NCBI RefSeq assembly: GCF_030116705.1
Contig: NZ_JAOTIK010000001.1
Location: 1,817,001-1,881,000 of the forward strand
Source of the DNA: Streptomyces sp. ML-6
GTDB lineage: Bacteria > Actinomycetota > Actinomycetes > Streptomycetales > Streptomycetaceae
Direction of reading: 5' to 3'
Length of the DNA stretch: 64,000 nucleotides
Each line of letters begins with the position of its first letter. Positions within the stretch are counted from its first letter, which is position 1. A program made the translations under genes and the position numbers. The notes under the pieces were generated by a model. That model was not told the DNA's origin. It did not search any database and saw nothing but the letters and a program-made list of their open reading frames with translations. Below are positions 32,133 through 38,571 of this stretch, in pieces.

Positions 32133-33542
32133 ATGACTTCTCGCAGCCCGGTGGACGACCTGGTGGTCGTCGTCCCGGGCATTCTCGGCAGCCGGCTGGC
32201 GGACGCGGACGGGCACGAGGTCTGGGGCCTCTCGGGCCGGGCCCTCCTCCGGGGCATCCGCACCTTCGGCCGGTCCGTCAGGGACCTGACGCTCCCCGCG
32301 GACCTGGGCGACGAGCACCCGGGCGACGGCGTGCGCCCGCTCGGCCCGATGCGCGACCTGCACGGGCTGCCGGGCGTCTGGACGCTCGTGGACGGCTACG
32401 ACGGCTTCCTCGACTGGCTGGAGCGCCACTTCACACTGCACCGCCGGCGCGCCGAGGAGGAGACCGGCACCCCCGCCAACCTGGTCGGCTTCGCCTACGA
32501 CTGGCGGCTCTCCTGCCGTTACAACGCGGAGCGGCTGGCCGAGCGGGTGGACGAGGAGCTCGGCCGCTGGCGGGCCTCGGCGCCGGAGCGGGCGGAGGCC
32601 CGGGTCGTCCTCGTCTGCCACTCGATGGGCGGCCTGGTAGCCCGCCAGTACGTGGAGCGGTGCGGGGGCGCGGAGGTCACCCGGCGCGTGATCACGCTCG
32701 GGACGCCGTACCGGGGATCCCTGGACGCCCTGCTGTACCTGGTCAACGGGGTGGGCCCGGCCGGTATCGGCCTCACCTCGTTCGCCCGCAGCCTGCCCTC
32801 CCTGCACCAGCTGACCCCCGACTACGCCTGCCTGACCACGGCCGCCGGCACGCCGTTGCGGTACGCGCGCGAGGTCGCCGGGCTGCCCGGCGTCGACGCG
32901 GCGCTGCTGCGGGACGCCGGGCTGTTCCACGCCGGCCTGCGGGAGTCCGGGGCGGGGGCGGCGTACGGAGTGGAGTACGTGCCGGTCAGCGGGGTGCTCC
33001 AGCCCACCCCGACCACCGCCGAGGTCCGGGGCGAGAGGCTGACCGGGCTGCTCACGATCGACGGGACCGACGAGGGTGGCGACGGCCGGGTGCCCAGGCT
33101 GTCCAGCGCCCATGCGGGGCCGGCGGGCCGGCCCGCGTACACGCCCTGGGAGAAGCACGGCTCGCTCCAGAACAACACGGCGCTGCGCCAGGCCCTCTAC
33201 AACTGGCTCACCCCGGACCCACCGGTGCACCGGGGCCCGGGGGACGGGGACGTCCCGCTGGTGGTGGACGCCCCGGACGTGATCACCGAGGGCGAGGTGT
33301 ACGAGCTGCGGGCCGCGGTGCCGCCGGACGTGCGGGGGCACGACCGGGTGGCCGTCTTCTCGGCGGTCGGGGAAGGACCGGTGCGGACGCTGAACAACCT
33401 GGGCGGGGGCCGTTACGCGGTGCGCCTGGCCGGGCTTCCGGCGGGGCCGCACCGGGTGCGGGTGAGTACGGGGCACGCGGGCCATGTCGTGATGACCGCG
33501 CTGGTACTGGTGCTGGAGGGCGGGGCGAACGATGGTGCGTGA
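32133..33542 (+). CDS. LCAT-like alpha/beta hydrolase (putative lipase/acyltransferase), partner of the caspase-NACHT gene
   Basis: 469 residues with no signal peptide. VVVPGILGSRL at 12-22 is the oxyanion-hole block of the lecithin:cholesterol acyltransferase group. Ser164 in CHSMGG is the nucleophile, Asp317 in EGGDGRVP and His342 in WEKHGSLQNN complete a plausible triad. A beta-sandwich-like domain fills about 375-469. It likely acts on membrane phospholipids or other esters. It overlaps by 11 bp, in another frame, the start of the caspase-NACHT-TPR gene, so the two are coupled. ATG 32133 is the last sensible start; no in-frame start further upstream has support, and its ribosome site is weak. 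It may be the effector of a two-gene conflict system. Confidence 0.85.
   Translation: MTSRSPVDDLVVVVPGILGSRLADADGHEVWGLSGRALLRGIRTFGRSVRDLTLPADLGDEHPGDGVRPLGPMRDLHGLPGVWTLVDGYDGFLDWLERHFTLHRRRAEEETGTPANLVGFAYDWRLSCRYNAERLAERVDEELGRWRASAPERAEARVVLVCHSMGGLVARQYVERCGGAEVTRRVITLGTPYRGSLDALLYLVNGVGPAGIGLTSFARSLPSLHQLTPDYACLTTAAGTPLRYAREVAGLPGVDAALLRDAGLFHAGLRESGAGAAYGVEYVPVSGVLQPTPTTAEVRGERLTGLLTIDGTDEGGDGRVPRLSSAHAGPAGRPAYTPWEKHGSLQNNTALRQALYNWLTPDPPVHRGPGDGDVPLVVDAPDVITEGEVYELRAAVPPDVRGHDRVAVFSAVGEGPVRTLNNLGGGRYAVRLAGLPAGPHRVRVSTGHAGHVVMTALVLVLEGGANDGA

Positions 33543-38571: not shown

Follow-up and report, generated by a model that had tools for sequence, protein, structure and literature searches.

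A caspase–STAND–TPR gene paired with an LCAT-type hydrolase gene in Streptomyces: a candidate accessory conflict module

The two-gene locus and its protein domains

We analysed a 64,000-nucleotide stretch of the genome of Streptomyces sp. ML-6 (contig NZ_JAOTIK010000001.1, positions 1,817,001 to 1,881,000; hereafter the window), in which an LCAT/PLA2G15-type serine hydrolase gene is directly followed by a gene for a caspase–STAND NTPase–TPR protein (Table 1). Both are long open reading frames in the same direction, with a third-position G+C content of 95% and 92%, respectively. A sequence-only reading of this DNA had described the pair as a candidate conflict or cell-death system, and its observation of the two genes is confirmed. 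The hydrolase stop overlaps the start of the larger gene by 11 bp (33532-33542), the residues Ser164, Asp317, His342, His94 and Cys151 and the other catalytic residues all lie where that reading had placed them, and the 1679-residue protein combines a caspase dyad, the Walker A and B motifs of a STAND NTPase and 13 TPR units, of which about 13 had been anticipated.

Table 1. Features of the gene pair and its flanks (window coordinates; aa, amino acids).
Feature	Coordinates	Strand	Details
LCAT/PLA2G15-type serine hydrolase	32133..33542	+	469 aa; Ser164-Asp317-His342
Linker between catalytic and C-terminal domains	33213..33260	+	aa 361-376; coil, low confidence at 361-370; Arg367 codon 33231-33233
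Hydrolase C-terminal beta-sandwich	33261..33515	+	aa 377-461; Ig/filamin-like
Caspase–STAND NTPase–TPR protein	33532..38571	+	1679 aa
Paracaspase-like domain	33559..34317	+	aa 10-262; His94/Cys151, Asp149
STAND NTPase region	34342..35631	+	aa 271-700; Lys324, Asp412/Glu416
13 TPR units	35740..37479	+	aa 737-1316; presumed sensor
C-terminal region	37480..38568	+	aa 1317-1679; no Pfam match listed
Hairpin between nadA and hydrolase gene	31979..32025	+
Long-stem hairpin between convergent STAND and RND genes	38765..38804	+
nadA	30762..31958	+	flank, outside the system
RND pump gene	38821..42063	-	flank, outside the system

The hydrolase scores above the cut-off of PF02450 and contains the Ser-Asp-His triad within an LCAT/PLA2G15 fold. 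The structures nearest to its AlphaFold model were lysosomal phospholipase A2 and LCAT, with the C-terminal beta-sandwich as an extra domain. The fold is thus phospholipase-like, and activity on lipids is predicted from the model. Compared with PLA2G15, LCAT and Tle4, the last of which is a type VI phospholipase effector, the window hydrolase differs in carrying the beta-sandwich, in being paired with a caspase–STAND gene and in lacking a strong hydrophobic segment (top mean hydropathy over 19 residues, 1.32).

In the larger protein, the His-Cys dyad is set in a caspase fold (caspase clan, C14-like), and the structure nearest to the AlphaFold model of the protease domain is the paracaspase MALT1. 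The fold, the dyad and the D-x-C motif all align with MALT1, from which the window caspase differs in being fused N-terminally to a STAND NTPase. Structure prediction of each protein, proposed in the sequence-only reading, returned a phospholipase-A2/LCAT-like fold for the hydrolase and a MALT1-like fold for the caspase. The window caspase does not reach the cut-off of Pfam PF00656; another caspase gene of the same genome does (L001, C1:5745949-5746671, in a 704-aa frame). Within the STAND region, G318, G321, G323, K324, S325, D412 and E416 (Walker A/B) are invariant in all 37 sequences of profile A3. Foldseek matches of this region include NLRC4, NRC2-4, the MalT complex and Cdc6/ORC, and the Pfam NACHT model scored 24.8 bits against a cut-off of 26.7. 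The TPR part diverges fast among relatives. A repeat sensor is typical of bacterial NLR-like proteins.

Linkage and patchy distribution of the pair

Searches of 150 Streptomyces genomes with the caspase–NTPase part detected 32 places in 31 genomes, all of them containing the caspase. An alpha/beta-hydrolase was encoded within 1.5 kb at 31 of the 32 places, the sole exception being one in G041 (L162); 15 were LCAT-type and 16 belonged to a type of about 300 aa with an HSLGS elbow. This count starts from the STAND gene only; the hydrolase-side search also recovered some of these places. Either hydrolase type occurs only rarely in a genome: in 12 genomes searched, the ~300-aa type gave one to three matches each, one of which lay at the caspase place in all 12. 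Because both types are rare and yet occur at 31 of 32 places, we reject the possibility that they are chance neighbours. Comparison of the two types with hhalign aligned 34 columns only, around the nucleophile, suggesting that they may be related only at the superfamily level.

From the hydrolase side, 84,980 species genomes were scanned using eight close hydrolases and two conserved peptides as seed, and the best 80 of 157 relatives were considered. A caspase partner was present at 60 of these best 80 loci. At another 13, which are no more than 6.5 kb from the end of a contig, no partner was seen; five are solitary, and two contain an NTPase protein with no caspase in reach (L183 and L214, the latter with a caspase frame further off). 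Three of the 13 (L179, L189 and L196) have other genes on both sides and are therefore also solitary. In L183, from Kitasatospora cheerisanensis, a hydrolase with a full triad is directly followed by an NTPase–TPR protein in which no caspase domain was detected. The best 80 rows are not independent, since L171, L173, L177 and L196 come from the same genomes as G075, G147, G026 and G071 and Lentzea accounts for 20 loci, most of them with a similar neighbourhood. Members outside Actinomycetota are few, all in metagenome bins, and may be misbinned.

The association extends to plasmids, where 27 records match the caspase–NTPase part and a hydrolase gene adjoins it in all seven regions examined (~300-aa type in five, LCAT-type in two). 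One plasmid pair is located two genes from a type I-E cas gene, and in two cases RES and Xre genes follow the pair. On plasmid NZ_CP109329.1 (L254), a caspase–NACHT–WD40 and hydrolase pair was observed near type I-E cas, HD-domain and transposase genes. A phylum-wide search with profile A3, in which two candidates per genome were scored, gave matches in at least 5 of 396 genomes. Among five further phylum-wide places, the three with a caspase hidden Markov model (HMM) match, one of them weak (1e-6), also had a hydrolase match; the two without a caspase HMM match (L250 and L251) had no hydrolase in their 1.5-kb flanks.

In a mirror-tree comparison of 26 pairs, the NTPase and the hydrolase catalytic domain correlated with r 0.93, so the two genes co-vary. 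That they are conserved together, as the sequence-only reading had supposed, is borne out in both search directions; frequent linkage across genomes and presence/absence variation between nadA and the RND gene, both of which it had suggested looking for, were found. Functional coupling of the two genes is well supported by these comparisons, and they very probably constitute one functional unit.

The pair is accessory in Streptomyces. Members of its close family are paired in 6 of the 150 genomes (the window, G075, G147, G026, G044 and G054), and any LCAT-type match at 1e-10 occurs in 38. A gene fixed across the genus, the outcome that would have spoken for a housekeeping role in the earlier reading, is thereby rejected. 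By comparison, nadA is present in 147 of the 150. Among the 30 nadA loci with the most similar sequences, each read over 1.5 kb, nadA is followed by the hydrolase in four (the window, L105, L115 and L131), directly by the RND gene in 12, by a response-regulator gene in two, and by nothing matching a query within that distance in seven. In the remaining five (L133–L137, in G116, G005, G066, G115 and G127), all that is present of the receptor is its TPR and C-terminal half, at 52-63% identity, encoded as orphan proteins of 706-787 aa; neither hydrolase, caspase nor NTPase was found with them. Three of these orphans (L134–L136) have a new N-terminus that is alike among them. In the same interval of G009, a Ser/Thr kinase–PQQ-propeller gene lies on the opposite strand (L138, 1210-3441), and L140–L144 contain genes of similar size.

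A second insertion site lies between a 2-oxoacid dehydrogenase E2 gene (sucB-like) and a GntR regulator gene followed by pyruvate dehydrogenase E1 (aceE-like). Both genes of the pair are present there in L037 and L038, the hydrolase alone in L039 and L040, and in L036 nothing but a hydrolase broken into two frames. The window genome has no insert at this site (E2 end, 58709; GntR start, 58841). The description of the pair as an accessory insert between nadA and the RND gene thus agrees with its patchy occurrence and with the empty intervals in other genomes, and a strong hairpin on either side matches the terminators expected there. The genes scanned between 27072 and 44121 encode PfkB, a 497-aa protein without a Pfam match, an Fe-S biosynthesis protein, NadA, the RND pump, a response regulator and a histidine kinase. 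A search of a phage collection gave no match that would mark the pair as phage cargo, and Rfam gave nothing above its cut-off in 30000-39500.

Proposed mode of action and alternative explanations

The pair is probably a conflict or cell-death system, and an immune role is likely. We lean towards an accessory NLR-like conflict module in which the caspase acts with, and perhaps cuts, the phospholipase-like hydrolase. The TPR array would sense a cue, probably from an invader, whereupon the STAND NTPase would switch and assemble, and this assembly would activate the N-terminal paracaspase-like protease. The protease would then act with the hydrolase, most likely by cutting after the basic Arg367 in the linker to the beta-sandwich, and the cut hydrolase would attack membrane lipids and so stop the cell.

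MALT1-like proteases cleave after Arg, and the aspartate of the caspase D-x-C motif has a role in the S1 pocket. Arg367 sits in a low-confidence stretch of the hydrolase model. Alignment A4 comprises 46 hydrolases, 31 of them caspase-paired, and was reduced to 26 rows by clustering at 75% identity; position 367 is Arg in 20 of these and Lys in two, whereas no residue is shared by more than 13 rows elsewhere in 361-375. The best Foldseek match was the lipase BlEst2 (PDB 6wpx/6wpy), likewise an alpha/beta-hydrolase with C-terminal domains, under an entry named as a propeptide form. The title of the BlEst2 structure report, as cited in PMC10816834, refers to inhibition by the C-terminal domains.

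Several observations weigh against this account, and three of them (the short hydrolases, the spread of the linker Arg and the beta-sandwich of another esterase) would fit an arrangement of parallel effectors. In that arrangement the caspase would cleave proteins of the cell or of a phage, the hydrolase, recruited to the same STAND assembly, would attack lipids independently, and the beta-sandwich would serve substrate binding or docking rather than inhibition. The ~300-aa hydrolases, which make up the partner at 16 of the 32 places located from the STAND side, are too short for the C-terminal domain and keep the same pairing. The linker Arg is not confined to caspase-paired rows: after removal of redundancy, all 12 rows in which no caspase was detected have Arg or Lys at position 367 (many of these rows lie at a contig edge and some are genuinely solitary), so that a strict tie to caspase pairing is not seen, and Arg367 is missing in several more distant caspase-paired subfamilies. 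Across the 26 pairs, no extra co-variation was seen between the caspase and the hydrolase C-terminal domain (partial r 0.175). The match to BlEst2 is low (TM-scores 0.36-0.38), and a second aligner spans the catalytic domain alone. According to the accessible text of PMC10816834, a similar beta-sandwich helps another esterase to act on substrates with long chains, and the enzyme was less active once this domain was removed. In PADLOC, no model matched the hydrolase, and the STAND protein drew nothing beyond weak ATPase matches. With evidence on both sides, a caspase cut at Arg367 is a possibility we would advance only tentatively. Parallel effectors seem to us unlikely, as the best Foldseek match is a lipase entry named as a propeptide form and position 367 is the best kept in an otherwise variable stretch.

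Retention of the active sites bears on whether the hydrolase acts as an enzyme. The sequence-only reading had found them intact, and they are conserved among relatives: 82 of 88 caspase-paired rows, a set in which three genomes and L182 each appear twice, have the full Ser-Asp-His triad, three have Ala-Asp-Asn and three are split or truncated. The three dead hydrolases (L061–L063) are LCAT-type and stand beside an intact caspase–STAND protein, so catalysis by the hydrolase must be dispensable there, a point that weighs against our preferred account. They would suit a hydrolase that serves, by its fold rather than its catalysis, as bait, adaptor or inhibitor of a killer caspase; set against the 82 rows with a full triad, we regard this as very unlikely.

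Gly at position 164 occurs in none of the 88 rows. In the second-site tree, the paired hydrolases fall outside a clade of seven rows in which no caspase–STAND gene was seen, and nested within this clade are five rows with Ser164 changed to Gly; one row (L216) is cut by a contig end that leaves its partner region unreadable. The linker is readable in four of the five, and all four have lost the Arg at aligned position 367. Loss of the partner followed by loss of the nucleophile is suggested by this clade, which, amounting to one loss and one substitution, is suggestive rather than statistical. Weighing on the other side, the loss of Ser164 is a single event, solitary hydrolases that keep Ser164 exist (L184, L197, L179, L189 and L231), and the solitary group has only a slightly higher ratio of non-synonymous to synonymous substitution rates (0.45 vs 0.37 and 0.35). 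A distant hydrolase without a caspase (L048) also has Gly at the nucleophile position.

Instead of taking part in conflict, the pair might regulate membrane lipids as a housekeeping or developmental function. The window copy is indeed located between conserved chromosomal genes, its scanned immediate flanks are not mobile genes, and the 20 Lentzea loci mostly share a neighbourhood. A regulator of this kind is nonetheless improbable given the pairing of the close family in so few Streptomyces genomes, the two different insertion sites with their empty counterparts, the related plasmid pairs near cas and RES/Xre genes and the rapid divergence of the TPR part.

If the conflict module acts as proposed, bacterial NLR-like receptors would gain a protease-to-lipase execution step, and cell death in bacteria and animals could be compared with a phospholipase arm included. 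Genes that carry no annotation beyond 'hypothetical protein' in the five plasmid records read for the ~300-aa type would also acquire a role. Gasdermins exist in bacteria. A pathway resembling an inflammasome is conceivable but doubtful: the NLR-type STAND receptor would carry an Arg-specific paracaspase, a single linker cut would activate a phospholipase zymogen, and this lipid-degrading enzyme would stand where gasdermin stands in animals. On that view, a cysteine protease plus a membrane hydrolase would represent a general actinobacterial immune effector pair, in which CHAT or transglutaminase-like proteins could replace the caspase and other hydrolases the phospholipase.

Relation to known systems and further architectures

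The principle of pairing a caspase with an alpha/beta-hydrolase is already known. In the available text of Kaur et al. (2020; PMC7159879), the caspase-superfamily domain of the VMAP (vWA-MoxR) ternary systems "always" has an alpha/beta-hydrolase gene next to it, with transglutaminase-like peptidases as a rare alternative, and caspases and related alpha/beta-hydrolases are also among the effectors of GAP1-N1 systems. The window pair resembles the VMAP systems, as described there, in this accompaniment, and transglutaminase-like peptidases likewise occur beside LCAT-type hydrolases in our data. It differs in being a two-gene unit whose caspase forms one protein with a STAND NTPase and TPRs. No MoxR or vWA gene was present among the scanned flanking genes (27072-44121), and membership in the VMAP ternary systems is rejected. 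The EACC1 systems (Kaur et al. 2020; NCBIfam NF047832) also consist of two genes with a caspase of the same broad type, and every one of the 37 A3 sequences has an NF047832 match at E<=1e-3. However, the window caspase scores 31.5-32.5 bits against a cut-off of 140, and the 5' gene encodes an LCAT-type hydrolase without a strong hydrophobic segment in place of a membrane-spanning EACC1 domain, so membership is again rejected.

Other relatives are less close. The portion of Kaur et al. (2021; PMC8195603) available lists effectors that are fused to a death-like domain, alpha/beta-hydrolases and caspases among them, and also mentions caspase versions operonic with AP-ATPases. For metacaspase–NACHT–WD40 proteins, Asplund-Samuelsson et al. 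(2012; PMC3501461) report "different hydrolysases" in operons, without detail; the window sensor differs in being TPR-based, and an LCAT-type partner is not mentioned in the accessible text of that paper. Bacterial NLR-like (STAND/NACHT) defence systems, such as the CARD–NLR-like system in the available part of PMC13236601, use the same NLR kind of STAND switch, whereas the predicted effectors in the window are a caspase and a phospholipase-like hydrolase.

No account of a STAND-fused caspase with an LCAT/phospholipase-A2-type partner was found in the literature searched, which was taken from the top-ranked papers where hits were many and whose scope left aside preprints and most subscription journals. 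The earlier statement that no named system has this exact pairing thus holds for the STAND-centred two-gene phospholipase-fold form, apparently new, but not for the caspase/alpha-beta-hydrolase principle, which is in print for VMAP in the text of PMC7159879 noted above.

LCAT-type hydrolases without a caspase were also observed beside a CHAT protein (L041, 10008-12167; L042, 6517-8637) and beside a transglutaminase-like/STAND protein (L053, L054 and L055), so the companions of this hydrolase, though of several kinds, tend to be cysteine-peptidase-like proteins. No such neighbour was identified in L045, L048, L052 and others. In L069 (6612-10892), a single open reading frame of 1426 aa joins a STAND NTPase and an LCAT-type hydrolase. 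A further long gene follows the caspase–STAND and hydrolase pair in L056 (1304-5002), L161 (12134-15454) and L068, and in the first two it contains AAA_11/AAA_12 (superfamily 1 helicase-like) domains.
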